DNA from: Eunapius fragilis
Taxonomy: Eukaryota > Porifera > Demospongiae > Spongillida > Spongillidae
Length of the DNA stretch: 64,000 nucleotides
Direction: 5' to 3'
Assembly (NCBI GenBank): GCA_963681505.1
Contig: OY811982.1
Coordinates: 2,578,622-2,642,621, forward strand
Part shown: one piece after another, positions 1 through 31,116 of the stretch
Position numbering within the stretch: position 1 is the stretch's first letter
Layout of the letters: the number at the start of each line of letters is the position of its first letter
Made by a program: the position numbers and the translations under genes
The notes under the pieces: model-generated
The model's database searches: none
What the model saw: the letters and a program-made list of their open reading frames with translations, nothing else
What the model was told of the DNA's origin: nothing

Positions 1-3000
1 AGGTGGCACCTCCAAGGTCAAGGATGGACTGAACGAACAGTGCATTATGACCTGCAAAGCTGCAGTCAAGAGATTGGAGTGTGTGTGGGTTCATCTAGCA
101 TCAGGAGAGATCTTAGTGAAGGATCTCTTGAGAGCTAAGCAGAGGGAGCAGCATTTGGTGACACTGTATGAGGCAGCCTCACGGGCATTGGTAGTAACTT
201 CATCCAATGTAAGAAAGGATCTAAATCAGAGATTACAAGAACTGGAGGCATATCATTCTCACCGTAATCATCTCAATCATCTTCTCTCCAATGCAAAACT
301 TCCTGCACATACATGTGGTACATAGTATTAAAAAATTAGTTTAAATCTCCATTAATAAAGCCTACTTACATTTCAGGTTTGCCTCAGCTGAATGCAGAGC
401 TGGAAAAGGATATTCAGAGTTTGAGCATTAAAACACTTTGTACTACAACCAGAGATGATAAAATTAATGTTATATTTCCAGCTGCAGGACCCTTGAATAG
501 CATTGCAGCAAAGTTCTATACCATGACATTTGAGTATCCCAGTTCAACATTTGTTAAATCATGGAAATCCTATCTCCAAAAATTGGTTACAATCACTTCT
601 GATGTTAGATTCAATCACATTGCTGATAATGTTTGGACACCATCACTCAGATTGTGTTGTTCCCGGGTTAATTCTTGCAAGGACATGTCTATTAAACTGA
701 GCACACTGGATCATCGGTTCAAACCTTTGGAAAGTAAAGGGAAATTAGAACAAGAACTTACTAACCTTTCACTAGGGAGTGCCATATGTATGGGCGTGGA
801 TGAAGGCACAACTGAATGGATCCAAAGCACGTGTGCACACATGAGAGAATACTGGATGCTGTGCACTTGCAGAGAAGCTGCAGCTCAACTTCTGGAGCTA
901 AAAAATGCAATTCCCTTGGAGGGAAATTTTAGAGATGTGGATATTCTTTCTACAGGGGTTAGATTGTCGATGTCACCGATGTAGTTATGTAACCAAGTGC
1001 TTTTCTGCATACAGGTAGAGAATTCCATGAAGGATGACTCTTTGAAAATGATAACCAGTACATTGGTTAAAACTGGTTATTTCCTAAAAGAAATTGCTAC
1101 AGATAAATTGAAGAAGCAGTGCCTTGAAGTATTTCAGAGATGTTTATCTCTTATAAAATGGTTGAAACAAGTCACCAAAGGTAAGATTTACTGACTATAC
1201 ATTTATGTGCGCTTTACATGAAAGTCTGTCTATTCATGCTGTAGACGTTTATGACCTAAACACATTTGTGACCATTGCTCTTTCTACTGCTACTGGAGGG
1301 GAAGATGCTCTCACTCAAGACAAGCTATCAAACCTCAGAACAGTGGGAAGTGGCTATGGTCCGCTTCTTTACTCTCTCCATAATACTGCTGGATTTCAAG
1401 AACTATCAAGTTGTTGCACTTATGTTTGGAAAGCCCTTGAGACAAAACCAGATTTACCCAATATTCTAGTAAGTTGTAAATTGTGCCAGCAAATTGTGTA
1501 TTCCATCAAATGTTGTACATGTAATTTTTTATGGTTCTCCTGAAAGGATGGTTGCATGGAGCACTTTGACTGGTACCAACACATAAGGAATAACATAGGT
1601 TCTGTGGAGGAGTCTTCATTCAGTCAACTGGAGAACATCCAGTTGTGTGGACAGTACTCAGTCGGTGTTGCAGCAGACTTTCCATTTCACAGTTCTCAGT
1701 TACGCATCCAGGATGTTGTGCAATTATGCATATCTGCTGGTGACAGGCCTGCTGTTACAAAACATTACAGTCTTGATGAACTAAGGGACCTTGAGAGTCG
1801 GCTTATATTGGTCACTAGTTGTGATGCTATGAATAGGAACAAAGTTGACAAATTCATACATGTGAGGTCCATATATTATGATATTACTTTATAACACTTA
1901 TATTCTTATCAATATAGACTTTGCACTCAATATGTCGTATTGGTGAAGTGCTGGTGGATCTGAAAAGGGAAGGAAATATCTCCTATGATGGCTGGAGCGT
2001 GACATGTTCTTGTACAGTGGGTTTAATAGACGAGTTAAATGAACAGGCCAAAATTATGGAGAAAGACCTACAATGTTGGAGGCTTGAGTTAAAGAAAGCA
2101 AGAGAAACGTACTATCAGATGAACTACTATACCAATGCACAGCTGCTCATTCTTCGTGAGCAATTGGCACAAGAGCAGACACTCTCTGACAGACTACTTA
2201 TGCTGCTGCAGAGTATATCCCCGATGGTCACAGAATATGATATAAAACAGGCTATCAGATTCTGCATACCTGTACCTAATGCCACTGAAGATGGTGATAA
2301 TGCTGTGCAAGATGGTACAATGCAGGCCCTCAATATTGAATCAAGTACACGAAAGCCAGTAGCAATGAAGTAACATTGCCAATATTGTATTACAAGTCCG
2401 TTAATCTCTAATATCTAATATTTGATTCCAGAACTGGGCTCAATATAACCACCAAATCAAGGGGCACTTGTTTTCTTACACTGAAACAAGTTGGAGACAT
2501 ACTCGATGTGCTAAGTGAGAGACTGCAAGGTACATGTTTACTGCTCACTGCATTTTTATATGTACCTTGATTTGTACATCTACTTGCTAGGAGCTGTTGT
2601 TGACGCAAGGCCCTTCCTTGACATTCTTATTCCTGGCAAGCCAAATCTCATTACTGCTGCTCCTAGTAAGGATATAATAATATTTTCATTATGTAGTGCC
2701 ATGTGTATGTACTGTAAAGATCAATATGATGGGGTTTAACTCATTCTTGCAGCACAAGTGCTAATGACAGTCCTCTCCATCTATATGAAAGACCCCACCT
2801 CTCCCCTCCCAACCCTAGAAGAAGTGTTGCTGTGTAGTGAACAGACCACTGAAGAACAGGTATATCCTGAGTAATGGTGCATGTATGATTAAATCACCAT
2901 TGCCTTGAGTTAAAAAATAAAACAATATCTAAGCAAATTCTTTCAGATAGCTGTACCTGTACACATTCTATCTTATCCTTTAGGCACAGTTGTTGTTAAG

Positions 3001-3122
3001 AAGAGCTATTGGAGATCCTGGATACAAGAGGATATTTTGCCTTGTCCATGCTGAGAAATTGTCATATAGGGTAGCTGACAATGTCCTAAAACAGCTGGAT
3101 GAAATCACCCAGGGACGATCAG
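1..3122 (+). other. RNF213-like: RNF213-like exons 1-10: N-terminal arm/stalk region
   Basis: Proposed exons: <1-317, 377-957, 1015-1180, 1245-1468, 1547-1861, 1918-2369, 2432-2529, 2591-2665, 2753-2859 and 2984-3122. Splice phases match at each junction (for example 317 ends in phase 1 and 377 completes the codon). The donor at 957 is the least certain. From 1245 the protein aligns well with human RNF213: DVYDLNTFVTIALS, YGPLLYSL, then HYSLDELRDLESRLIL, NYYTNAQLLILREQL, and PLPTLEEVLLCSEQTTEEQ followed by LLLRRAIGDPGYK. The first 200-300 codons are less conserved and are assigned by continuity of frame and splicing. No catalytic motif is expected here; in RNF213 this region forms the arm leading into the AAA core. 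The first exon (1-317) also exists as two degraded copies at 41,976 and 44,522. Confidence 0.85.
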
Positions 3123-6100
3123 GTGTCTACATGTACATGTACATGTGTATACATAACCTGTAGGATGATAAGTTTGGTTAATTTCACAGTTGATTTAGTG
3201 GCTTTGATTTATTAACAAACTAGTTAAGTTGAAATTATTAACTCTATGTTATTGTATTATTGGGAAATATTTAATTAGTTTGATTTTAGTTAATTACATA
3301 TTTACATCAGCATGTTATGGTATAACATTAAATTAACTAGTTAACTGGTAATTTTGAAATAATTTTTCTTCATTGTACATGTTCAACAATGCAAAGGTTT
3401 AAAAATATCATTCTGTATAAAAGTAACAATGATAAAAATGAAAATATACCTACCTTAATTTTGTGAGTGGTACTACTTTGATTAATACATGCCTACCTTA
3501 ATAACAATATAAAATCAGTCTACTGTACTTTGTATGGACTTTGGAAACTAATAAGCAATTTTAGTAAAGAAACAGTGTTGTGCATGTATAATGGAGTAAT
3601 TGGGAAGTATATTTATTGATTAATAATAGTATAGCTATTGCTCACTATTAAAGATGGTAGCATGAAATCAATGGTGTTCACTATATAGAGAGCTTTGAAT
3701 GTGTTGATTTTTAATGGTTAACGACTTATAATTTCTAAGCTAGTGTAGATGTGTATGTTAAAAATATGATTTACTAGCATTACATGTTGAAAGGTATTAA
3801 TTATATGTGCATACATGAATGTAAAAGTATTACTAAAAGAATGCATTCGAATATTACATGTACCTATTTATTACACTGTTGATGTATGAAATTTAGTTGT
3901 GCTTAAATTTGCATATTGTGACACTGCTCATTTTAATAAACAGATTATCGATTGGTGATTATATGTTGCTCTGATGAAGAAATGTCCCACTTCACAGCCA
4001 AACTGCAGATGTTCCAACGATTTTTAAGTCCCAATAATGATGTTAAATGCACTCAGTACCTCAGGAGTAAGCTAAATGTAGCACTAAATACTACAAAGTC
4101 ACATGGAAGATCAGTGCTTGGTAATTGTGCTATTGAACGGTGAGAAATATTTTATTATTAGCGTTAGTGCTTACTTGTACAATGTGCTCCAGATTGTCGG
4201 TGCAAATAGTGAGCTCAACTCGCTCTGGAATGGGAAAGTCCCTCTATGTTCAAAGGATGGCTGAGGGCATAAGAGGCTGCAAAATTACGTGCATACCAGT
4301 GCATGGACCTGATGTGACCTCTGATGCCATAATGAAGCTTTTGAAAGATGATGAACACACCAACTGCACCATATTCCACATTGATGTGGCTCCTAATGTA
4401 AGACTATGGAATAGCTCATTGGCACTGAAAGGGTATCTCATATTGCTGAAATGTGAACATGTAGGTTCTACATCAAATGCATTCTGTGCTGTTTTCACTT
4501 CTGGTGTTGAAAGGCTTAATGAACAGTTTTGGCAGAATATGGCGGTGTAATAATAACGACATATATGTTGTAGAGGTGACCCTACCAGAGGAAGGGGTGA
4601 GATTTATCATAATGTGTGTGCTTTAATGGATACCTTCGATCTGTTCATGCAGAATACATCAATATCAAGTAGTACTGTTTCATTCCTAAATCTGCTACCT
4701 TCAGTAAAGTGCCTGAGCCCAATGGAGTCAAGCAGGGCAAATGATACACCAGGATTAGGTCAGTTTATCAATAGTTCACAATTCTGAGATGAACATTTCT
4801 ATGTATAATTTTTTTTTTCATATCTAACTCTAGTTGGTTGTGACAAGATGACATTTAAAGACCAAGAACACAAAATGGTTTATCGCTCTCTGAGCGCCAT
4901 CAGTGGTAATCGTGGCACAGCCTCAGTGAATGATGATAAGATTATGCTTGGAGTTATTATTCAGTGAGCACTTTCATAGATGTGCTGGTGTCTCAATTCA
5001 TGTATGCTTATTGTTGTCTCATTGTGTCCATCCAGACATTGTGGGCTGAGGGATCCATCATGGTCAGAACTTGACCACTTTATAAGGTTCTTAGCTGTGC
5101 AGCTCCATTCATGTGAACAGTCTGTTTACTGTAATGAGAGCATTGTTGGAGATACATTGAGTGGAATGAAAAGCTTTGTTGTCAAATTCATGGTCCGAAT
5201 GTCAAAGGTTAGCTACATGTATCTCAAGGGATAAAATTAATTTCACTACAATGTACAGGACTTCTCAAAACCATCACTGCATGGAGAGCTTGCCCGTGAG
5301 AGAAGCACACAACAGGAGGGAGAAGATGGAACAGAGGCTAATGATGATATTGCAAATTATCAGATTGATGAACATAAAAAGTGGGAGAAGAGGTACTTAT
5401 AGATTGGATGCTTTATACTGTCACAAGTTATCTTCACAATCTTTACATTCTAGTTCACATCCGTACCTGTTCTTTAATAAAGATGGAGTGACCTTTACCT
5501 TTGTGGGGTTCATTGTTACACCACAAGGTGATCTTGTGGATCCAAGACGCCATGATCGTCAATTACAAGATCGTCCAATACAGGATAGTCAATATACCAC
5601 AGGCATACAACATACATATCTTCGAAAAAGCCTCAATTCCCAGCATATGCCTCAGGTCCCTCAGGCCAGGTTTGATTATGTACAGGATTGGCTTGGGAAA
5701 AATACATTTCAATCAGTAGGAGCACTCAGTAATAGCCAATGCTTTACCTCCTCAAATAGTAGTCAGTCTAGACAATTATCATTTACATCAAGGGTCCCGG
5801 GTATGGTTGGCCAACAAACTGCTAGTAGCAATTCCATAGCAAGGCATCACATCATTGAGAGATCTGTCATGTCACCAGAGCTGTATAGAGGATTAAAACT
5901 CTATGGTGTGAACTTTGATGAAGACTACAGCATGTGGACAAAGTGAGGGCTCTGTACATGCAAGGTGGCATTATATTGTTTTCTTAATAGAAAGCAGATG
6001 ATAATGAAGTTGGCATGTGTGATGGGTCTGAAACAAGAAGACTGTACAGATCCTGACCCATCATACGCTCTTACAGCAGATAATCTGATCAAAATCTTAG

Positions 6101-9100
6101 CTATCCAAATGAGATTCAGGTGAGAAGCAGAAACGATGTGCAGTGTATTTCATAATAAAGGACAAATGTTTATAAATTAACCAAAAGGAGTTAATTGTTG
6201 CAAAATGTTCTATAGAATAATGTGGGCTGAAATTCTGATCTAAACAAAGTAAAGATTCATATAATATACATGTATGATTAGATATGATTAAAATTCATTA
6301 ATAATACCAACAACACGTAATTAAACGAAATAATCCCCTGTTATACTTTCATGTACTCGACCAGGTGTGACATTCCAGTAATACTCCTTGGAGAATCAGG
6401 ATGTGGAAAGACCCGCCTTATTCAATACATGTGTGACCTCATCGCAGCCCAGTTTGCTAGAGTCAAGAATATAATCATTTTGAAAGTGTGTTATCTTATA
6501 GCATGCATAATGTATTTATGCATTGACCCACATGTGTGCATGTATTCGTTAGGTTCATGGTGGTACAACTCAAGAGGACATCATCAAATGTGTCAACAGA
6601 GCAGAGGAGTTGGCAAAGGACAATGCTAAGCTTAAGTTGGACACTGTGATCTTCTTCGATGAAGCCAACACCACAGAAGCCATAGGATTAATCAAGGAGC
6701 TCATGTGCGACAGGAGGATGAATGGAAGGCCAATCCCTAGGGAGATAAAGATAATTGCAGCTTGCAATCCATATCGAAGGTACATGTATTGAAACAAAAT
6801 GTGTATATCTCTGAAGCCAATAATCCCTTGTATTTAAAAGGCATTCTGATGATATGATTGCAAAGCTGGAATCAGCTGGACTGGGGTTTTATGTCAAGAT
6901 TAATGAAACCCAAGAGCAATTAGGTACATATTAGTGTTATATTTAAGAATCCAGCCAATCTTGGTCAGGAACTGGTGATGTTTATGTTAGGTTGAACCCT
7001 ATCGATTTAAAGTGTCAGAAGGTTTAGGGGTTATTATTTCAGTTAGATTGCAGTTCAATACATAGTCATCTTCAGACACTTAATCTTGTTAAGGCAAAAC
7101 TCCACTTCGTCATCTGGTGTATCGGGTTTTGGAACTTCCACCAAGTATGAGGTCACTGGTGTATGACTTTGGGCAGCTTGACACAACCACAGAGGCAGAT
7201 TATGTTGTTCAAATTGTCAATAATCAAGTAAGGCAAATGTCTTTATAGAAAAGTGTTTTGAATTGTATTTTGGACTGTATAGTAGTAGAATAGCACAATA
7301 ACATGTATTTCTCTATTCAGCTCGGCAAACTATTCAGCCGAGAGGCAATCAATGCTATTGCTCACGTACTAAGTTGGTCACAGCAATACATGAAGAATCA
7401 AAAGGTTTGAACAACTTTCATAACTGCAGTGTCTGCACACAACAGTCAGCACTATATCTATTCAAAGAAACATTAATCCCACTCTCAATAGGATGAGTGC
7501 AGCTATGTCAGCCTACGTGATGTGAAGAGGGCTGTAATTGCATTTGACTACTTTTACAACAATTCCCCATTTTTCAGTGAAACAAATCATTCAGAACGTG
7601 AGGTGTGATATGCAGAATTTAGTATTAAGGAATATGTACTTTAATTACACTGTTTAAAGTTCCAATTTTCACTTGTTGTTATAGATTTTCAGCAACTCCC
7701 TTGTACTTTCTCTGGCACTATGTTATGACGCTAGACTACTGAAGAGAGATGACTATGAGGAAAATGTGTGCAAGGAGTTTAGGTCTCCACTTGCACTTCC
7801 TGGGGGGGCTTTACAGTTCAGAGATGTGGTCAAGAGGTACATTTTAGGCTTTTACACATGTGTACATCTGTGCCACTTACTACCTCACACTAGGAGCCAA
7901 GAGGCTCTCCTTACCAGTATGGAGGTGGGACCCAACATTGCACACAATGCAGCCCTGAGAGAAAATGTTTTCATGATGGCTATTTGCATTGATCTGAAAA
8001 TTCCCCTCTTCATCATTGGGAAGCCTGGTAGCTCCAAGTCATTGGCAAAGAGTATTGTGACCTCTTCAATGAAGGGGGCGGGGTCTTCAAAGAGTTTTCT
8101 GAAATGCTTCAAAGAGGTTGGAACATTCACAAGAGCACATCAAAAGCATGATAGCTGCATGAAGGCTCTTTAATAACAGGATGTCATCACGGGTTACGTT
8201 ATTTGTCTACTGTGGTGTACAGAAATTAAATGCATTCATGTTCTTCCAGTTTAACATATCCCTTTTATATTTGACATTGCACAGGTCTTTGGTGCTTGGC
8301 CCAAAATAGCCAAGCTCTAATTATTTATCTTTGTCCTATATCAGCATATCAAAGTGAAGCTATTTGATTGTGATACACATGGTTACTAACCACACATATC
8401 ACAATCGACTTGATGTCCTGACTTGGGACCAAGAAAAAGGATTAGAGGTTGGCAACCTTTGGCCAAACTCCAAAAAATCTGTACATCTAGTGTGCATCGT
8501 CAAATGTAAAAGGGATTGTGAATGAAGTACACCGTGATAGACAAATGCATGGCCCGGCATGACATCCAGTACATTAGACATTATCATATACATAATAAAA
8601 TGTTACTGATCATTGTTGAAATTGTATCACCATGCAAAAATCTATAAAAATATTTCTACACGCAGGTCTACATGGTTTCTTATCAGTGCAGTCAGCTCTC
8701 AACTCCTGAGTCAATCAAAGACGTTTTCAAACAAGCCCAGAAGTTTCAAGAAAAGCAGGATCCCACTAAGTTTGTCTCTGTGGTGGTACTGGATGAGGTG
8801 GGGCTGGCGGAGGACTCACCACACCTTCCATTGAAGGCACTACACCCCCTCTTGGAGGATGGAACAGATGATGGCATGGTAAGATATTGGGTTGGGATAA
8901 GAGCCAAATCTTTTTAAAAAATGCAGACTACATGTATGTTTTTGATATGCTCACATTCCACTTTAAATGCGACATGGCTACATGTGTATGTAATTGTAAT
9001 TGTTGTTTTGCTTCACACAATATTTTTATCTATAGCAAACTGCCAACCAAAGAGTGGCATTTATTGGAATATCCAATTGGGCATTGGATCCTGCTAAAAT

Positions 9101-12100: not shown

Positions 12101-15100
12101 CTTTTCAAACAAAGTCAGGTACATATGCAATTTGTTTTCCAAGTGTTCAACTTCCTTTTTTGATGAACTAAAAAAGAATATTTATTTTTCAAAAATAATT
12201 TTTAATTGTTCAATTGAAAGTCAGGTACATATGCAATTTGTATTTTATATCAATTTATATTTATATGCAAATTTATATTTATATGCAATTGAAAGTCAGG
12301 TACATATGCAATTTTCTAACTTTTTGTTTTCCTAGCGTTCAAACTCTTCATGACTCCTATTAATAAAGAATATTTTTGTTACTATTATATCTGGTATTTA
12401 GCAAGTTACATGTAATTTCTAGATTCGTATGGCACTGTTTGGATGCAACCGTTTTATGCAAAATAAAGAAGGCCATGATTTGATAACATTATTGTACTTT
12501 GAAATACTTTCATATGTTTTTAATTTCTAGGACTGTACCAGCATTCTGCCCATGTTTAAATTTTTTTAGTTGTACATGTATAGTGTAGGTAGTAAGTTAT
12601 GTGTGTGGATATTATTATGTTGATATCTCAAGCTAGAATAACTGTATTGTATACATGTGTATCATTGTTACATGATATATGCTGTAATTATGTGCATTTT
12701 GACAATTGAATATCTATTTAATTAGATCACTATTTCAAAGGCAACCAGGAAAAGAGAAAGACAATGTATTGCTTGTAGTCCAATGTCAGTCTGCGCACCT
12801 ATATGGTGATCTCATTGCTTGTGCTCGCTATCGTGTCAGTGATGAAAGGGCTAAGGCACTTGCACTGTCTCCAGGTGCCCAGACCTCCTCCAGGTCAATA
12901 GGGTGTACCCATGTGCTGTTCATTATCTACCTACCAAGGCAGACACCATCACTGTCATTTGTTGGTTTCCAGGGAGATCCCTGGTCGTCAGTGCATATTG
13001 ATGAGCTGAGGCTGACCAATGATGAAATAACATATACTGATCTTTTTGAGTGTCCAATCAGCAAATTGTTTTGTAGTCCCCCTGAAGCTGAAAGCACAGC
13101 TGGTGGGCAATATCACAAGAGGCTGCATAGTTGCATACAAGCAGCTGTTGCCACTCTACAGGACTCACTGCAAACCAGTGACAGGGGAAAAAAGCTGGTA
13201 GCTGTGTTACTTGACTTGGTTCCTAAATTTCCACCCAAAGATCTTGGTATGTGTGTGAGTTTTTGGCTACACTTTATCATACTGGTATTATTAAATACAT
13301 GTGTAAGCTAGCAAGTTATACAGGGTGTTTCACAATCAAAGAAAATTGTTTATAAATAAACCACAAGCATTTAATTAACTGTTAAAAGTTCTAACAGCAA
13401 AGGAAGACATGCTGGTGAAATAAAATTAATATTATAATTAACAATAATAAAAGTCCCAAAATCCCTTTTCATTTCAATTAATGTTAATAAATGTAGGGCT
13501 GATGGTTAGTTAAAAGATGCAAACTGTATTTAAGTAACTGCTTCTGTTTAGAAGTTATTCAAGATTGAAATCTTGATTTTTTGATTTTCGCAATGTACTT
13601 GATTTAGGGGCCATTGAATCTCGATTTAGTGATTTGAATTTATTAATAAATTCGGCCAAGTTGATAGTATTAAAATTCAAGGATATGTTGCGCTTTTGAA
13701 TGCCTCTAAAATGGTATGTTTTGATTAGGTGTTATCAAGAATTATTAATTCATGTCTGTTAATTTAATTCTTTTGATTTTATTAAATTAAATATTTAGTT
13801 TGTATACATCAACATTTAACCTCAAGTTAATAGAGCATTTACCAACAAATTTAAGTTAATTAACTGCTTTTGGTTAATTTATAAACAATTTTCCTTGATT
13901 GTGAAACACCATGTACATGTACATGTATTCATCGATAGTAAGAATACTTATTTGCACAACATATGCAACTTAATTCAAATAGATTACACAAACATAAATA
14001 ACTAACTACTACAATATTAACCTAGGGTAACTCTGTTTATTGTGTTGTAAACATATCTACATAATTTTTCCAGGTGAAGTACTATTTTATGAAGCACTGG
14101 TAAAGCATGTACACTCTCTTCTTCAACAAATGGAGGAAATGATCCCACAGTGCAAAACATGGGCACTAAATGAAGTTCTCAGCCACAAAAGCCTAAGACT
14201 TGGAGGGACACTTCAAAACACTCTCATTCGCAGGATTGATGGTGTTATTGTTCCAATTCTTGCACACATCATTTCATTTATAGACCAAAACAGCAATTTG
14301 GCATTGTTCAGCAAGCAACGTGGCAACCCTGTTGGCCAGCTATGGCTTTCAATATTCAGAAATTCATATGTTGTTCAGTTCAAATATGGTTCTATTGTGA
14401 AGTCTAAAAGTTCCCATAGCGGTGATAAATTTAATTGTGAAATGCCATTTTTCTGGTTGATAAAAGAAACAATAGAAGCAAACATTGCAGGTATTATTGC
14501 ACATTTGAAAGTATTGCATTATTTATAGTATACATTTCAGTCATAGGCTACACTTCTGCAAATGTACTCAATGAAAAAATACACAGCTTATCGATTGGAG
14601 GGATTCTCAAATCAGTCCCAACTCCTCATAGAGATAATCTCTACCAGCGATACCTCAATGACTTTGTTGTCAGTACATACACCAGTTTGCAGAAGGGTGA
14701 GCAAGAGCGTATTGCAGAGTGCAAGGTAACATCATACATTTGATGCATGTGAGCATTTTGTTTATTGATTTTAAAAACAGCTGGTATTGAGTGCACTCAA
14801 TGGGCTAGTCCCTGCTAATGACAGTTCACTGGTGAACAGAATGACAGCTTTGCATGCAGCATACCTGGCTAACAAGTCCCACCTACTGTGGTTTGGGAAC
14901 CTTGTGTCATGTGTTCCTGATATACTGAAGGTTATGAAGTGCAAAGCATCGCCTGAACAGCTGGTGAGTATTTTGTATTTGTACATACATCATCTAACAT
15001 TTACACACATAATTAAATTTTGTGAATTAAAAGATATTTTAAGAAGGTCTAATGATATGATGAAAGTACATGTATTAGAATTGTATAAACATTACATGGA

Positions 15101-18100
15101 TACAAATTATTATTTACATCAAGCAAAGATATTCTGTGATGTTGAGATGATTTTGTGCTTCAATTACATAATAGGGCATTATTTTTAAGATAACTGTAAC
15201 AATCGACAGGAACCACATGTTAATTAATTGTAGCTTTAAGCCAATTGTCCACATGTTTTATTGCAGACTATACATGCTGTGGGAAAAGCTGTTAGTCACC
15301 TCAGACCTCCACTTGAAAAGGATGAGGCCTCCATGCTGAAATGGCTTCTGTTGGTCCAGAAGTGCCAGGTTTCTCTAGAAACACTTTTGTCTTTTTGTAT
15401 CTCAGCTGATGTCAGCAAGCTACGGTGATGGCATTACTTTAGATAATGTGTTTATATCACGTTCTTTTCAGACATAATTGGCACTGTATCAGAGCTATAC
15501 AAATGTTCATGGAGCATATTGGTTCAAGATATCAGAGAATGCAGCCGTTTGCTCAAATAATATATACGGTATGCTCTACGTGCATTATCAATACAGGGTT
15601 TAAAAATTGTGATTCTGATTAGGATGTATCAGAGTCTGGGTATTTGCAAATAGGAACAGCAGACACAATAAATAAAATCAGGAGCACACTGAAGATTATT
15701 GACCATCCAAGCATAAGTAACAGGTGATTCAGCTTGATTTTAAAGTTGATCTGGATGTGAATTTATTGTCTTTATTGTAGAGATTTGGAAACAAGTTGTC
15801 ACACCTTCTTTATAGAACTCATTTCACAACTGTGCTTTGGGCATGAGATTCCACAAAAAGATCTCATTGGACTGCTTTTTGATATTGTGTTCAAGAGTAG
15901 ACCAAGGGAGGGCTTGCTGTTCACTAGACAGCTCTCGTATAAAGAAACAGATGACAAGGTTCCAGTGATCAGATCGTCTCTACTACAGCTTCTTTTGAAG
16001 CACAGGTAATTCCAACTAGTGTCTCCTGACACATGTTCATACTAAATATGTGCTTCCCTTAGTTTTGACTTGGTTCGAGAGTACCTACAAGAGTACCTCC
16101 TAAAGTCTAGGCAAGTACTGCAATACAACTCTGTTGATAATTGCCAACTATACCTTCTAAGCATCAAGTGTTTACAGGTATTTAAAAAAAAATCAATTGC
16201 ACACCCTCTCCCTTCAATGCCATCACTATGTGTACATGTACCTTTATTATGTGCCTTATATTTCTTTCTCAGGATGTGATAAATGCAGCACATGAGCACA
16301 AGTCACTAAAAGAAAAAGTGTCTATTGCTTCTGCTTTGCTTGATTCAGCTTATCCACATCTTTTTAATCACACTGGAAGAGTGACCTTTGAGTATCTTGA
16401 GGCAGTTGCTCATACTCGTTATGGGCTACTGATCGCTGGAGAAGTGTTACATGAAGATACATGTAATGATGCTCCAACAAATCCCATTTTCCTTGCAGCA
16501 GTTCAAAATGTTTGCAGTAGCAAACATATAAACAGAATAAATGAAAAGTTAGCAATTGGACCAAATGTTTTTTTGCTGAAAGTGTTGGGTAGAATATACA
16601 GCATGAGTTCACTGAAGAAGGTAGCTAAGAAACACAATTGGCTTTTGCCACAATTACTGCGTAATGAGGTCTGTATTTTGTACACATATGCACGGTGAAG
16701 GATTGACTATCTGTTCATTTGTATACTCAGAAAGAACCACAGCCAGATGCATTTATTTTATATGGAGCAATGTACTGTACAGTCCGTGACTGCGTTGCTG
16801 ATGTGATGTATGGCAGGAATCTGAAACATCTTGAAGATATATCTAAAGTATTAAATAAACGTTTGCAGTTAGTGTTAGATGTTGCAATTAACATCCTACA
16901 TGTATGCAGGAGCTTGAGGGTCATGAACGCATTTACATCAATTTGGCACTATATGAAGTTGTGACACTCAGCTGTATAGACAGCCACCAGGAAAGATACA
17001 TTCCTAGTCCCGAGGTAGCCTAATCATGTAATTGGAAAACTATAATTATTATTGCAATCTGTTTCCATTAGGTGCTTGCAGCATTTGAAAATTGTAAAGT
17101 ATTGACTCCTGAGGTAAGATATCTGTGTTTATAGATTTACTCATTTCAGTGTAAATGTTTACCTTCATGAAATCATAAAATAGCTGCGCTGCATGGCTAG
17201 AACTCTGCTTATGAGCACACAAGATAGTCTTCTTGTTAGACAGTGTATCTCCTCTCAAAATGGACTCCTGTCTGCTACTGTGGTGCATACAGCTGCTGTC
17301 ATGTCCAGCAGGCAGGGTGTACCTGTGCTGTGGCCATTTGTAAAAATGCTAACCGATCCTGCAGTATTGGTGGTTAGTTGATTAATCAATTACCAATGTG
17401 CATGCTGACCATTGTGGTATCACACAGAATGTGTACCTACCCACAATGCCCGAGGATGTATTACCTCACATACAAGCAGCACTACAAAGCCATGAAGATG
17501 TGGAAGGAAAATTTTATGGTACTTTTATATTCAATATTAATAAATTATTTATGTTTAGCACACAGAATGTCCAAATGGACATCAATACTTTGTGGGAAAT
17601 GTAAGCAGATGAACATGGACATGTACTTTTAAAATCAAAGTTAATTTACAGTGTGGAAAGCCGATGGTACAGTCAAATTGTGTAGTGTGCCGTGCATCAA
17701 TTGGAGGTCAAAATCATATTCCTGTCTCAAAAAATCGTTTTGCTAACCCGTAAGCATTGTGTGAAATAGTAGCAAGACAAGTTTGAAAAGTATGAATATA
17801 AATTGAAATGGCTGAATTTGTGCATTGCAGGTTAAGTGATTCCAGCCAGCGTGGTTACATCTTACCAAATCCAGAACAAAGGAGCTCAGATCCTTTACCT
17901 GAGAGGCATCTGTCTTCAGTTGCATGTTGCCTTGTGAGGATTGTCATGCATTCTGCTCTCCTCTGGAGCTGCTGTTCCTCACCGGTACAGTACGCATGGT
18001 GTATGCAAATATGCTTGGGAAATAAATGATGCCTCTATGTGATATATTATAGAGCATATCTGATGGCACAAAAAAATTGATGAAGGCGAGGGATGCACTT

Positions 18101-20882
18101 GCAGCATCACAGCTACTTTTATGGCATTTAGAAAAAGATTTTGAAACTTTGAAGAAGGCAATAAAGAAAAATGAACTGGAATGTGCTGTTATGGTACATG
18201 CTGTACTGCAAAATGTTATATCTGATTGTCCTGAAAGCAGTAAGCAAACTAATAGTAGTTATTAATAGCATGAAGTACAGTGTACTTGGGTCCATATTGT
18301 CAGCTTTGATCATAGGTTTTATAACTCCTGCAGCACCATTAAATCAATTGAAAACTGCTGATCAGCGATCTCAATGGGAACGGAACTTTAGTGAAATTTT
18401 CATTATTCCTGTATTGAAGGTGAATTAAGAATTAAATAAGTATGTGAAGTAACTTTTAATTTTCAACAGAAAATGGGAGAAAGAATATCATCTGTTGTGC
18501 AGTCAATAATGAAAGATGATAAGAAAGGTTTATGAATGACTAAAACGCAATTTTGTGTCTTAATGCCACCTGTGCTTTCTTCAGAATATGGCCGTCTAAT
18601 GTATATAGTTAATGAGAAGGTGTCTGTGGAGCCTGCTGATTTGAGCACCCATGCATGGGCATACCACCCTAACCTCTCACTGGAAAACCTGAGCATCACT
18701 TTGGAGTCCAAAAGTTTGCAAAGCAAATATCCCATTTTGCACAACTTCTTGCAAAATGTGTGACATAGTGTGCTGCATTTCTGTTGCTTGTGCATTCATT
18801 TTGTTTCACTGCAGGAGCGTGTTTTGAGGGCAACTCAATACATTGCAGACATTTATAAACTTCAGAGTCTTCTGTGTAGTCATTACAACCATCAACTTGA
18901 CCACAAAGAAGCTTGCACTACACCAATTGCTCACTTCCTCAAGCAGCTACCAAGTTGTGCAGCATTTCTCTCATGCCATATGATTTTAATACATTGCATC
19001 AACTATTTCAGGTCACATCTTAGATGAAGTGAAAATGACATTGGAGAGCCTAAACAAGGCCTGGGGATTATGCAGAAGTGTGCTTAAAATTAATTGTAAG
19101 CTCATATTAGGTATATTTTATACAGTTTTGAACCGATTGATCTTTGAATAGCTCGTATACCTATTGAAGACAAGTATCTAATTCCATCCTTTACTGCTGA
19201 TGTATTGTTGGACCACATCCTTCCGACCACTAACGGAGCTGGTGTATGCACTACAATACTGCTAGACTTCCTGGTTCGCACACACAATGGCTTCCTTGAT
19301 GACTGTAAAACAAATGTTGAAAAAGAAAATGGGTATGTTGCACAATAAATGTAAATCAAGTATGAAAGTGTGATCTATTATTATACAATTGTGTACATGT
19401 GATTATATTTGGCATGGTATGTAGAATAGAATCTGAAGATTGTCATAATGGAAAATGAAATAGGTGCATTGTACATAAAATATTGTTTGCAAATTGAAAT
19501 GGTCAGAACATGCAGGGTGAAATTTTGAACGTATAATGATTTACACAGTATATGTCTTTGCTGCATTCATTTTTGTCACCATAGGGGTCTACAATTTCAG
19601 GTGTGCATATAAATGTTTACACAAAATTGTTTTCTCGTCAGTGTTTGATCTGATATTTCATAATGACTGCACTCTTAATTATATAAAGGAGTTTCACAAC
19701 ATATTTTTATCCCTGTATTTGTTGTGATGTCGTCCATTCCAGTATGGTGAAAGTGGAGTTGCAGAGAGTACCAATCCAACACTTTCATCGCTTCCACACT
19801 TTGGATTATGAGGCACAGCTGTGTTCCATTATCAGTTCCCACTGCGAGTATTCCCTAATGACTGGAAAAGACCACGATGTAAAGTACGATTTCTCTGGTA
19901 TACAAAAACAACTGATCAACCAGTTTGTCAATGGAAAGCCTACTGTTATCCTGGACCTACCTCATGTTGTGTACAGAAAGGACATCCACACTATTGAGCA
20001 CTTCACCCAAATAAAGGAAAAGCTTCACCCCCAGGTAAATGCCATACATATTCTCGGGTGTCCTTTACACAAGTGTACATGAATTTCATCACTGTGAAAA
20101 GGTCAAACTCCCTGCTCAATCCCAGCAAGAGATTTTAGGAGAGCTTGTAGGTATTCCACACCTAAAGGAGGCTCTAGATACCTTGGAAACAGTAATGGCA
20201 TTCCTAGCAGCTGGAGTTGGCATGAATGCAGCAATGGACTTATCCACTTATGCAACATCTTTTAAAATTGAATTCAGCTCAAAGGTATACATAAAATATT
20301 TACGTATTTACAAAGGCTTTGTCTATGTGGTACTATTTATAGATCCAACAACACTGCAAGTTGTGTCACGTGCTTTCATTATGGGAGACTTTATCTGTTT
20401 CTATGGCCAGACAGCATGTGATCAGAAAAGAGGTATGTTACTTGAAATTACTAAGTAAGTAATTGTTGTCGTTACATGTAATAGGAACCATTTGAGGGAA
20501 TAGTGTTTCACGAAAAACTATCCGTGGTCCAAATTCAGAAGCTTGACGGTGTATTGAGACACCTTAAATTGGACCAGCTAGTTGTCAAATTGTACCTGTT
20601 GATTTCTCTGTACATCCGAGGTTCTAAACAGCAAGAAAAAGAAACAAGGTATTTTCAATCTCCTAATATGTAGTAATGTTATCAATTTTTATCCCTTGCA
20701 TACTTAATTCCTATAGTATCATTGATGGAATGGAACTATTTAATGACATATATGGGGATGATGATGGTATCCCTGGATTTGCAGCTCATTTCCCCAAAGA
20801 TATTACTCTAGGGCAGGCTGTAGAGGCTTGGAAGCACATCGTGGAGTATCAAAACAAAGTAGAAGCATACAGTTTGATGTAG
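1..20882 (+). CDS. RNF213-like: RNF213 (mysterin)-like giant AAA+ E3 ubiquitin ligase, 5' partial, about 68 exons
   Basis: The reading frame is already open at the left edge and runs through about 68 exons to a TAG at 20,880-20,882, about 4,040 codons. Human RNF213 has 5,207 residues, so roughly the first 1,000-1,200 lie upstream. Order and motifs follow the human protein from end to end: stalk region, AAA core with two canonical P-loops (GESGCGKT, GKPGSSKS), E3 module, RZ finger (CPNGHQ...CGKPM) and C-terminal domain. RNF213 is known as a cytosolic hexamer-like AAA ring with ubiquitin ligase activity in lipid metabolism and defence against intracellular bacteria. Exon phases agree at nearly every junction and I saw no in-frame stop, so the gene looks functional. 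The RING finger is missing (see 15,472-16,005). Introns are mostly 50-70 bases; a few hold repeats. Similarity was judged by eye from memory of the human sequence. Confidence 0.93.
3123..3943 (+). other. Long AT-rich intron 10 of the RNF213-like gene
   Basis: This 821-base intron lies between a phase-1 donor (GTGTCT at 3123) and the acceptor before 3944. It is AT-rich with short ACATGTACATGT palindromes near 3131-3150. The stretch around 3190-3350 (TTAGTGG..TTTGATTTATTAA) resembles the interior of the MITE at 13,321-13,913, so it may hold a decayed relative. I see no exon inside. Confidence 0.6.
3944..6119 (+). other. RNF213-like: RNF213-like exons 11-19: first AAA-like module and linker
   Basis: Proposed exons: 3944-4139, 4193-4503, 4574-4596 (a 23-base microexon), 4653-4758, 4834-4963, 5036-5207, 5259-5392, 5454-5942 and 5991-6119. 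A P-loop-like segment, STRSGMGKSLYVQRM, at about 4220-4265 matches the human SERAGVGKSLYVKRL. It is the least canonical of the P-loops seen. Further matches to the human protein are IFHIDVAP, FLNLLPSVKC, LRDPSWSELDHFIRFLAVQL, GDTLSGMKSFVVKFM, SHPYLFFN, SPELYRGLKLYGVNFD and LTADNLIKILAIQMRF. Between the last two blocks there is a serine- and glutamine-rich insert (about 5,530-5,830) that the human protein lacks. The microexon is supported because it restores phase and yields TSEVTLPEEG joined to NTSISSS. Confidence 0.85.
6365..7602 (+). other. RNF213-like: RNF213-like exons 20-25: canonical AAA module (Walker A GESGCGKT, Walker B FFDEAN)
   Basis: Proposed exons: 6365-6485, 6553-6779, 6841-6923, 7094-7227, 7321-7404 and 7492-7602. 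Walker A is ILLGESGCGKTRLIQYM and Walker B is DTVIFFDEANTTEAI, both complete. They are followed by IIAACNPYRR, RLVYRV-like RHLVYRVLELPPSM and YDFGQL, all as in human RNF213. This is one of the two AAA units that bind and hydrolyse ATP in RNF213 (often numbered AAA3). In human RNF213 its activity controls assembly and recruitment to lipid droplets; that role is inferred here only by homology. All catalytic residues visible by eye are intact. Confidence 0.92.
7685..9914 (+). other. RNF213-like: RNF213-like exons 26-32: second canonical AAA module (GKPGSSKS, VVLDEVG)
   Basis: Proposed exons: 7685-7836, 7894-8116, 8666-8878, 9036-9316, 9366-9522, 9585-9667 and 9764-9914. Walker A is IIGKPGSSKSLAKSIV, preceded by the highly conserved ENVFMMAICIDLKIPLF. 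Walker B is SVVVLDEVGLAEDSP, followed by PLKALHPLLEDG and FIGISNWALDPAKMNRG. This matches AAA4 of human RNF213 nearly residue for residue. The region ends with SSFPKDREYTQ, the start of a block continued in the next exons. The 549-base intron at 8117-8665 contains no recognised element. The intact ATPase residues argue that the protein is under selection. Confidence 0.92.
9915..10440 (+). other. Intron 32 of the RNF213-like gene (526 bases)
   Basis: Nothing recognised beyond AT-rich sequence and a short A run. The flanking exons join in phase (..REYTQ to ICQNVNRIK). Confidence 0.6.
11309..11577 (+). repeat. Intronic repeat, copy 1 (paired with 11,776-11,990)
   Basis: The intron start at 11,309-11,470 and that at about 11,801-11,945 share blocks: GAGTTCAGTGGCA, TGTCTGCTATACTGCATGAAATGCTTCTTG versus the same with small changes (about 11,375-11,408), and CCCCTTATCTGTTTGCTA. 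The two copies sit in neighbouring introns and have diverged substantially, so the duplication is old. No TSD or coding content seen. Confidence 0.6.
12119..12725 (+). repeat. Intron with local repeats of the splice-donor region
   Basis: The exon end and donor at 12,109-12,130 (AAAGTCAG|GTACATATGCAATTT) recur at about 12,218-12,241 and 12,290-12,313 inside the intron. The rest is AT-rich. This looks like local tandem slippage that copied the 5' splice site twice. Confidence 0.65.
13321..13913. mobile_element. Mariner-type MITE inside an RNF213-like intron
   Basis: The element starts CAGGGTGTTTCACAATCAA and ends with the inverse, TTGATTGTGAAACACCATG, flanked by TA at 13,319-13,320 and 13,914-13,915. 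The inverted similarity extends about 55-60 bases inward (AAAATTGTTTATAAAT and TTAATTAAC in both arms). A TA target duplication and CAGGGTGT-type ends fit a Tc1/mariner non-autonomous element. There is no transposase. It lies in the 827-base intron between 13,246 and 14,074. Confidence 0.75.
14074..16005 (+). other. RNF213-like: RNF213-like exons 40-46: hinge and E3 module, RING finger absent
   Basis: Proposed exons: 14074-14490, 14541-14725, 14781-14963, 15267-15424, 15472-15568, 15623-15723 and 15781-16005. Matches to human RNF213 include ILAHIISFIDQNSNL, YQRYLNDFVV and SCHTFFIELISQLCF (human NSFFVDLVSTICF), then VPVIRSSLLQLLLKHS. In human the C3HC4 RING (CSICLG...CLPCDHVHC...CPYC) lies between the blocks aligned here to 15,472-15,568 and to 15,790. 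Here only about 33 codons (exon 15,623-15,723) separate them, with no cysteine-histidine pattern. The introns on either side are about 54 and 57 bases, too short for a missed RING exon. The E3 module surrounding the RING is otherwise preserved. Confidence 0.88.
16063..17372 (+). other. RNF213-like: RNF213-like exons 47-52: E3 module downstream of the RING position
   Basis: Proposed exons: 16063-16177, 16273-16668, 16731-16847, 16910-17014, 17072-17113 (42 bases) and 17184-17372. The sequence reads SFDLVREYLQEYLL (human SFHDVKDYIQEYLT), FEYLEAVAHTRYGL, AFILYGAMYCTVRDCVADV (human RYLVYGDEYKALRDAVAKA), RIYINLALYEVVTL, VLAAFENCKVLTPE and ATVVHTAAVM. The helical scaffold of the E3 shell is therefore present without interruption. 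The donor at 16,848 is chosen for phase; alternatives a few codons downstream are possible. Confidence 0.83.
17428..17749 (+). other. RNF213-like: RNF213-like exons 53-55: RZ-type zinc finger, intact
   Basis: Exons 17428-17518, 17566-17600 (35 bases) and 17652-17749 encode NVYLPTMPEDVLPH followed by the finger CPNGHQYFVGNCGKPM and QSNCVVCRASIGG. The human counterpart is CPNGHPCSVGECGRPM...CIDC. The Cys and His of CPNGH and the two cysteines of CVVC, expected to bind zinc, are present. So is the cysteine of GNCG, equivalent to human C4516, which has been proposed to take part in ubiquitin transfer. The finger is split over two introns of 47 and 51 bases. In RNF213 the RZ finger is needed for RING-independent ubiquitylation, including of bacterial lipopolysaccharide. 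Confidence 0.92.
17831..20882 (+). other. RNF213-like: RNF213-like exons 56-68: C-terminal domain and stop
   Basis: Proposed exons: 17831-17984, 18053-18239, 18334-18419, 18470-18527, 18585-18757, 18815-18953, 19012-19095, 19152-19332, 19743-20034, 20102-20284, 20343-20432, 20485-20648 and 20717-20882. Matches to human: QRGYILPNPEQR (human QTGHVLGNPQRR), DQRSQWERNFSEI, DEVKMTLESLNKAW, SGIQKQLINQFVNGKPTV, HVVYRKDIH, LWETLSVSMA and EPFEGI. The last exon ends HFPKDITLGQAVEAWKHIVEYQN, aligned to the human C-terminus QFPEEILLASCVSVWKTAAVLK (positions 20,789-20,860), so this is the true end. The 410-base intron before 19,743 shows no recognised element. Confidence 0.9.
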
Positions 20883-28860: not shown

Positions 28861-29234
28861 AATAATAACATTATTGTGCTTGATTTTGTGCGTGTTTCAT
28901 TGTTTGTCAATTTTTATGTTAACAATTTGAAAAGATAAAAGTGAGGAAACTAAATGATGAGACTTTAAAAAGTCTTCCCTATATCAGAATCACTTATGTG
29001 CAATGCTTGAAATTAAAATCTCCAGGTTACGCCTCGTTATAACACAACCGTCACAGTTTTTATTGCGATTACGCATTAACCGCTGTGCTAAAAAAGTTAT
29101 CACTTTGAGGATATGTATCTCTGGTATCGAATATGCTATGGTGACGCAAGAAGTACTGTTAAACTCACCTTGTTTTGCTCTTTCTAATGATGGTAATATT
29201 ATTATCCTCTGAGCATTTTTAAAAACATTCCCCA

Positions 29235-31116
29235 GTACCTACCGCTGATGATAAGCGCATGATTGCACGAAGAAGGGTGGAAACGGGTCATTCTGAAGAC
29301 ATGGTCGCAGTCTGGTTCAAACTGAAGACAGGCAAAGAGATCCATCGCTCAGTTGTTGGCAAATACGTCCGGGCTGGCTTCCATGAGATGGATATTGATG
29401 GACCGGAGGCGAAGAGATGCAGGAGGAGGGGGCCCAAATGGCCGCTTCTTGATTTAGGGCTTTACACATGGTTCAGTAGGTAAATAAAGCATGCTCCTTT
29501 CGAAAGTAGCATGCATAAAATAAACGATGATCTTTCTCACTTTAGTGTACGTGCGCGCAGTGGTGTGCTATCGGATGCTCTTTTACTCACAAAAGCTGCC
29601 GAGTTAGCTCAGGAGTTGGGTATCCATCTTTCCACATCTTCTTTGAATCCAGTACCAGTTACTTCTACAGCTAGTAGCAGCCAGCCAGTGGCAGCCCCAC
29701 CCACAGTTAGCAGCCAGCCAGTGGCAGCCCCACCCACAGACAGCCAGTGGCAGCCCCGCCTCCAGTTAACCGCCAGCCAGTGATCATGACAGCCACACCT
29801 CGAGTTAGCCGCCAGCCAGTGACAGCCACACCCACAATTAGCCAGCCAGTGGCAGCCCCACCCACAGTTAGCAGCCAGCCAGTGGCAGCCACACCCACAG
29901 TTAGCAGCAGACAGCTATCACCAACAGCTTCCAGCAATGATGATCTCACTGTGGATGGACATCTTATTTTAAGCAACGGTTGGCTTTCTAGATGGAAAGG
30001 ACGGCATGGCGTATTCAGCGTGCGGTTACATGGAGAGGCTGGTGGTGCTGACCAGCAAGGTGTGGCTAGAGCCCAGAGGGAGTTGCCTGGTATAATTGAG
30101 AAGTATCGACCAGAGGATGTCTTCAATATTGACGAGACAGGGTTATTTTACAGACAAGCAGTAAGTGAATTGATCAAGGCACATGCATATATACATATGA
30201 CTTCTTTATTAGGTACATTACATGTACATAATTCAGTTGGAAGGGAAATGGTGCACACTTTAATAATATTTTTTACAGCCTGATCGCACCCTCACTGCAG
30301 ACGTGCGGGGTGCCAAGAAAGCAAAGGACCGTATTACAGTGTCTTTGGCTGTAAATATAACTGCAAGTGAACGACTGAAGCCAGTGGTAATACACAAGTA
30401 CAAGAAACCACGTTGCTTTGGCAGAACATTTAACCCCAACAGCCTGGTCATGTATTACTCCAATACAAGTGCCTGGATGCGCACAGATGTAAGAAGAAAC
30501 TAATGCATGTATAAATGAAATACATTTTAATCAGATCTTTTTTCTGTGGTGGATACTTAGGTGTTTACTGACTGGTCAAAGCAAGTCAATGAGCAGTTCA
30601 AACAACAGAAGCGGCAATGTTTGATGCTTCTTGACAATGCCAGTTCTCATGTTTTGTCGGACATGCCAATGATTAAAGTGGGCAGCTTTGATTGCTTTAA
30701 GTTGAGAAATCTTTTGCTGCTATTTTTTCCAGCCAATTGCACATCAGTCGTCCAGCCATTGGACCAGGGTGTGATTGCTGCACTAAAGGCTCGGTACAAG
30801 AGCAAGCTTGCCACCCACATGGTCACCCAGTATGACATTGATCCCACCCAAGATCTGCGAGATGGAAACTGAGGGGGCTGAAACCATTGCTCAAATAGCT
30901 GCCAGGTTGATGGGTCGAGACATTGAAGATAGAGGTGATGAAAGTGATGGAGAGGCTGATCCAAATAATGTAGAACCTCGAACTGTGCCACTGGAAGAGG
31001 CAAAACGGAGTGCCTTAAGCCTTGCTCAATTTGTAGGAGATAATGTAGCTTTGTTTACTGAAGCTGACTACAGGGCACTTTTGCTGCTTGCTGAAAAGGT
31101 TCAAGCTCTACATTAA
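29235..31116 (+). pseudogene. Tigger/pogo transposase (CENP-B type HTH plus DDD endonuclease), decayed
   Basis: Proposed exons: about 29,235-29,480 (HTH, KLKTGKEIHRSVVGKYVRAG and RRRGPKWPLLDLGLYTWF), 29,546-30,160 (LSDALLLTKAAELAQELGI, then NGWLSRWKGRHGVFSVRLHG and FNIDETGLFYRQ with the first catalytic Asp), 30,279-30,488 (ITVSLAVNITASERLKPVVI) and 30,561 on (LMLLDNASSH and VVQPLDQGVI with the second and third Asp). A reading-frame change occurs inside the proline-rich tandem tract at about 29,690-29,760. After 30,870 the usual HAGF-type C-terminal segment is missing, and the frame shifts to ICEMETEGAETIAQIAARL, continuing to 31,116. The three catalytic Asp positions remain but the protein is probably not functional. 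Confidence 0.8.
29683..29912 (+). repeat. Tandem repeat encoding (AAPPTVSSQPV)n linker in the transposase
   Basis: Units of AGCCAGCCAGTGGCAGCCCC followed by ACCCACAGTT recur about seven times with small changes. The repeat lies between the HTH and catalytic parts of the transposase and is the likely source of the frame change there. Confidence 0.75.

Follow-up and report, generated by a model that had tools for sequence, protein, structure and literature searches.

The question raised by this locus is whether an RNF213 ubiquitin ligase can do without its RING finger. The stretch analyzed here (the window) is a 64-kb segment, C12:2578622-2642621, of the 219-Mb, 24-contig genome of the sponge Eunapius fragilis, and an RNF213 gene occupies its + strand from before base 1 of the window to position 20882. 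A sequence-only reading had proposed that this single gene is an RNF213 homologue that has lost its RING. Our answer, to which we give a probability of about 0.8, is that the homologue truly has no RING, like all other RNF213 loci found in this genome, and that the ligase most likely works by its RZ finger alone.

Around the site where a RING would be expected, the exons 15267-15424, 15472-15568, 15623-15723 and 15781-16005 (all on the + strand) form an open, phase-consistent chain within a hand reading of 17 exons. A simple gene finder returned the same four exons; having been trained partly on them, it is not an independent witness. The first is an E3-back exon that ends with ACG before the donor gtgatg, a junction also seen by eye in four paralogous loci; an alternative donor at 15368 was rejected because it would run into a stop codon. 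The second encodes an E3-back helix, its FMEHIGS being aligned with human FVEHVLLG, and the third, which comprises 33 codons and 2 bases as had been noticed before, encodes the E3-back helix right before the missing RING, as the exon chain and the alignments place it. The fourth, assigned by exon chain and human alignment, is the E3 exon after the missing RING and carries the CHTFFIELISQLCF block, for which a start at 15,790 had been given but whose HTFFIEL begins near 15800. Two introns of about 54 and 57 bases had been described correctly; a third, of 47 bases (15425-15471), had gone unmentioned. The 57-base intron (15724-15780, + strand, phase 2) is kept in four paralogous loci and lies where other RNF213 proteins have the RING, so that two E3-back helices are joined across it at the position of the vertebrate C3HC4 RING.

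The missing segment can be measured by alignment with human RNF213 (8s24). Position 335 of the query corresponds to position 3977 of the human chain and position 385 to 4103, leaving 49 residues between them here and 125 in the human protein; the difference of 76 agrees with the earlier estimate of about 75. Over a tighter interval, the window gene has 30 residues and seven vertebrate rows have 98-99, and the shortfall at the RING site is approximately 70-76 residues relative to vertebrates. A Pfam search (E up to 0.01) of the 902 residues of the E3 module returned the RZ finger only and no RING, and the same search of a control, the Corticium protein P0046, returned RING families as well as the RZ finger. 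A profile built from 14 RNF213 RINGs was also run over six reading frames, with a best E of 7 in window positions 1-22000 and 0.6 over the ten RNF213 loci of the genome, neither of which is a convincing match. For comparison, three protein searches yielded a homologue set (P0001-P0218), and all counts of homologues given here are among the matches listed in these searches: 208 match the E3 profile, 190 span the RING site, 165 of these 190 match the RING profile within the interval at E below 1e-3, and 25 show no such match. As far as the genomic letters tell, the RING is truly absent at this site, introns included, as the sequence-only reading had claimed. Neither the RING usual in the RNF213 family nor one that would place the gene in the RING-type E3 ligase class was found in the window gene. 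Because the 25 spanning homologues also lack it, the RING is treated here as usual but not diagnostic for the RNF213 family, and the window gene is filed as a RING-less variant.

When the block after the RING site was used as a query against the genome, 16 matches were obtained at ten loci on contigs 1, 2, 12, 13, 15 and 21. All ten carry the E3 module, read exon by exon, and the C3HC4 pattern is absent from the + frames of every one of them; on this reading, the absence of the RING is common to all ten RNF213 loci found in the genome. A genome-wide Pfam RING search placed none of 150 scored sequences (out of 481 candidates) at an RNF213 locus, a result that shows little. Two further copies were observed on C12. 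Window positions 1-21662 recur as an inverted copy of the RNF213 gene within about 70 kb downstream (L005-L010), 99% identical, which is either a true duplication or a retained haplotype, and a third copy of window positions 35-2183, at 91%, lies farther downstream.

It is very improbable, in our judgment, that a RING exon is there and escaped notice because the exon chain was misread or the assembly is wrong. The chain was read by hand and several database models are clearly wrong at the site (P0003, P0121), which speaks for such an artefact; against it, the introns of 47, 54 and 57 bases are open in no frame for a RING, the RING profile is negative in six frames of ten loci, and the same exon layout recurs in copies and paralogues. 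A hidden RING exon was rejected on the exon chain, the C3HC4 pattern search and the six-frame profile, all of which were negative. The assembly gap that had been considered as a possible cause is not there, as the window contains no N; together with the 99%-identical inverted copy and the diverged paralogues of the same exon layout, this makes a local assembly error unlikely.

Among the spanning homologues, the interval lengths of RING-bearing and RING-less proteins do not overlap. The RING is missing from all seven demosponge proteins (two of them assigned by gene-id prefix), from the single glass-sponge protein in the set (Oopsacas), from 13 stony-coral proteins, and from two amphioxus models, one scallop (Mizuhopecten) and one annelid (Capitella). 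It is present in all five named Homoscleromorpha (Corticium, Oscarella) and four unnamed entries that group with them, as well as in coral, hydroid, mollusc, nemertean, echinoderm, hemichordate, amphioxus and vertebrate proteins. Among the listed homologues spanning the site, no demosponge or glass-sponge protein has one. Five of the 25 models are doubtful: P0027 and P0036 are truncated at the site, P0003 is misread there, and the amphioxus models P0012 and P0171, which have close or near-identical RING-bearing relatives, are perhaps exon-skipped. Without them, 20 RING-less homologues remain. P0121, also misread at the site, was excluded from the counts. The proposal of one exceptional gene was thus too narrow: the RING is absent at all ten loci found in the genome, in every demosponge or glass-sponge homologue of the set that spans the site and in a separate coral group. 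A consistent RING-free clade had been named as support for true loss; demosponges and the glass sponge lack the RING, and Homoscleromorpha keep it. Homoscleromorph proteins such as Corticium P0046 and Oscarella P0125 are sponge RNF213 with an RZ finger, like the window gene, and differ from it in having kept the C3HC4 RING. RING-less coral paralogues (P0023, P0050) miss the segment at the same place as the window gene but form a separate group beside RING-bearing coral genes. RING-less proteins are already publicly deposited, with RNF213 or RZ-type names; no report of a RING-less RNF213 was found in the literature searched, the scope of which fell short of most subscription papers and of all preprints.

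Before the homologues were aligned, 36 bird and fish rows were dropped and 60 of 96 kept. A first tree held 46 proteins and the ten loci of this genome, and a second held 42 of the 190 spanning proteins and eight of the ten loci; both are unrooted, quick trees with SH-like approximate likelihood-ratio test (SH-aLRT) support only, computed after the RING columns had been taken out. In each, the demosponge rows fall into one starred group (17 rows in the first tree, 14 in the second). In the second tree, Homoscleromorpha and their unnamed kin form a separate group; the main RING-less corals form a third, near RING-bearing corals, and P0136, a further RING-less coral gene, has no settled place in that tree. 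The glass sponge stands with the demosponges on one side of a branch, with a support of only 63. RING state requires four changes on the first tree and six on the second; starred branches make four and five of these unavoidable, respectively. When the demosponge rows (14, including eight of our own loci) and the five main coral rows without a RING were held together, a group named after the trees had been seen, the tree was 81 log units worse (approximately unbiased test, p 2.7e-6). A single origin of all RING-less genes was rejected on this test, and at least two origins of the RING-less state are therefore probable among the genes sampled.

The coral state is best read as a loss. For sponges, the earlier term "lost" is a better reading than "never had", and it rests on sponge monophyly: if sponges are one clade, with Homoscleromorpha having the RING at the same place as other animals, its absence in the other sponges would be a loss. 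We consider it rather unlikely that the first RNF213 had no RING and that demosponges and glass sponges kept this primitive state, with the RING inserted once on the way to Homoscleromorpha and other animals and later lost in corals. The trees are unrooted and the demosponges are one starred group, so that a root on the demosponge stem makes one gain as cheap as one loss, and no RING-bearing demosponge or glass-sponge protein is among the matches listed; likewise, primitive absence would cost no more than loss were demosponges and glass sponges the first to branch off. If sponges are one clade, however, the RING position shared by Homoscleromorpha and other animals argues for loss.

How might a ligase without this domain function? 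According to the passages of PMC7311170 cited here, the mouse RING sits as an insertion between the two final helices of E3-back, and a delta-RING protein in which residues 3941-3999 were replaced by a 5-residue linker showed autoubiquitination like that of the wild type, while a wider deletion presumably broke the fold. In this construct the RING was taken out between the same two helices that a short linker joins in the window gene; a net 54 residues were removed, compared with approximately 69 fewer in the sponge gene, where the cut is deeper. The construct is an assayed protein, the window protein a predicted one. The cited parts of PMC11549300 report that the mammalian RZ finger does transfer ubiquitin, with C4505, H4509, C4525, C4528, C4516 and H4537 as ligands, nucleophile and base, and that ubiquitylation of Salmonella and Listeria was lost in RZ mutants and not in RING mutants. 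By motif comparison, the window gene has the residues of the RZ-transthiolating E3 class: equivalents of all six reported metal-ligand and catalytic residues are kept in its RZ finger. With a short linker in place of the RING segment between the two E3-back helices, the scaffold could keep its shape; the Cys4516 equivalent would take ubiquitin from the charged ubiquitin-conjugating enzyme (E2) and pass it on, the His4537 equivalent would act as the base in this transfer, and nucleotide binding in the AAA core would control it. The RING-less sponge proteins, if made as predicted, are most likely RZ-only ligases and natural counterparts of the engineered mouse protein.

Over the RING-site exons, the ratio of nonsynonymous to synonymous substitution rates (dN/dS) is 0.12-0.25 in six diverged pairs of loci, indicating that the RING-less genes are working genes under purifying selection; the pair C12a/C12b is too similar to be judged. 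Several points weigh on the other side. Some dS values of the diverged pairs are near saturation, and for the two exons nearest the site, dN/dS was computable in three of seven pairs, at 0.12, 0.34 and 0.49. The equivalent of W5097, the E2-contact tryptophan of the C-terminal domain, is threonine in the window copy. Passages of PMC11549300 further state that ubiquitylation of the Toxoplasma vacuole suffered in part when the RING was inactivated and that the isolated RING is active in vitro, which means that the RING is not without effect everywhere. Finally, the polarity of the change in sponges is one that we infer. It is clearly unlikely, though, that the protein, while made, has ceased to be a ligase and serves as an AAA machine or a coat, the RING having gone as ligase function relaxed. 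The threonine at the W5097 position would fit this, as would one paralogue on C15 without the IGGxxH part of the RZ motif and the coats that form on Toxoplasma vacuoles without RZ activity (according to the same source); the six RZ residues kept here, the RZ motifs in nine of ten loci and purifying selection on the E3 module stand against it. The W5097 position is Trp in RING-less Amphimedon, Tyr in RING-bearing Homoscleromorpha and variable among RING-bearing homologues, and thus does not track the RING.

With regard to the motifs CPxGH and CGxP...IGGxxH, the tenth locus is the C15 paralogue (L048/L050, C15:2946600-2962500), which has no RING, matches neither RZ pattern and retains remnants recognizable by eye. 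It is a possible inactive member of the family.

The claim that the RING is dispensable in RNF213 holds for autoubiquitination (PMC7311170) and for ubiquitylation of lipopolysaccharide (LPS) and bacteria, and it fails in part for the Toxoplasma vacuole (PMC11549300), as far as the cited passages go. PMC11549300 also states there that a bona fide substrate of the RING has yet to be identified. In the cited parts of PMC12440826, Shigella IpaH1.4 binds human RNF213 through its RING and nothing else, and RNF213 lacking the RING escapes degradation; the authors reason that the RING, being retained, must have an unknown benefit. Disease mutations fall in the RNF213 RING. We regard it as an even bet that the RING is an old accessory module, separable from the ligase function and shed repeatedly, on the demosponge and glass-sponge stem and again in the coral paralogue group, with further losses possible in annelids and scallops. 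If so, an RZ-only RNF213 would be an old and stable animal design, and the RING would serve something that RING-less animals do without, for example, a surface for partner binding or control that pathogens can grip. RING-less animals beside RING-bearing close relatives make this function testable by comparison, and RING-less proteins would allow the RZ mechanism to be studied without a second ligase domain.

Active RINGs have Lys or Arg at the linchpin, the residue after the last RING cysteine (mouse Leu3986). Lys or Arg was found in none of six mammal rows, three of them donkey, in 83 of 100 other vertebrate rows (mostly birds and redundant), in seven of eight amphioxus rows and in all three named stony corals (Hydractinia has Asn and an unnamed row in the coral group Gln), and the corresponding figures are 4/9 for Homoscleromorpha and unnamed kin, 3/6 for hemichordates and echinoderms and 5/31 for lophotrochozoans. 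Leu occupies the position in five of the six mammal rows and in five squamate rows. As a lead only, the contrast between mammalian Leu and the Lys or Arg of many vertebrate, amphioxus and coral rows and of some from Oscarella suggests that the mammalian RING, weak as it is, may be a derived form. The histidine ligand of the RING is aspartate in 21 of the 31 lophotrochozoan rows, a possible sign that the RING is decaying in bivalves and other molluscs.

The remaining landmarks, all on the + strand, identify the window gene as an RNF213 homologue, as had been proposed, of a demosponge, with a dynein-like AAA core, E3 scaffold, RZ finger and C-terminal domain predicted from its exons. These align in order with vertebrate RNF213 (mysterin), which differs by the RING in E3-back. 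Gene-finder exons at 6365-8878 encode two AAA units that carry Walker A and B motifs and are taken to be AAA3 and AAA4; the first has Pfam matches to AAA_5 and AAA, and the AAA block at 8648-8917 matches RNF213 with a phmmer E of 4.5e-22, as expected of the AAA core of this family. The E3 module, from E3-back to the RZ finger (14074-17984; 17 exons and 902 residues in the hand-read splice chain, open and in phase), matches human RNF213 at E 2.3e-66 (phmmer), providing the family scaffold of E3-back, shell and core, and falls among RNF213 genes in the tree. The RZ finger spans 17566-17749 (exons 17566-17600 and 17652-17749; PF20173, E 4.1e-20) and is of the RNF213 kind, and the C-terminal domain characteristic of the family ends with the stop codon (19743-20882; phmmer to RNF213, E 2.4e-14). 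A likeness to the N-terminal CBM20 upstream of the window was noticed by eye only, and Pfam gave nothing for that candidate stretch. A single-exon-frame phmmer query gave chance matches only, and a protein search with the 902-residue E3 module gave one match. The nearest protein relatives of the window gene are demosponges, with Amphimedon, Geodia, Dysidea and Halichondria entries in the top matches listed; the best listed match has an Em gene id, a prefix that we take to denote Ephydatia muelleri (P0001, P0003, P0121). Elsewhere in the window, open frames at 29223-30283 may belong to a pogo/Tigger-like transposase, which they resemble by eye. A tandem repeat of 21 bases in 71 copies lies upstream of the window (L003:3986-5482); the gene-finder model translates it as a KADDGLS-like repeat of seven residues within the N-terminal part of the window RNF213 gene.
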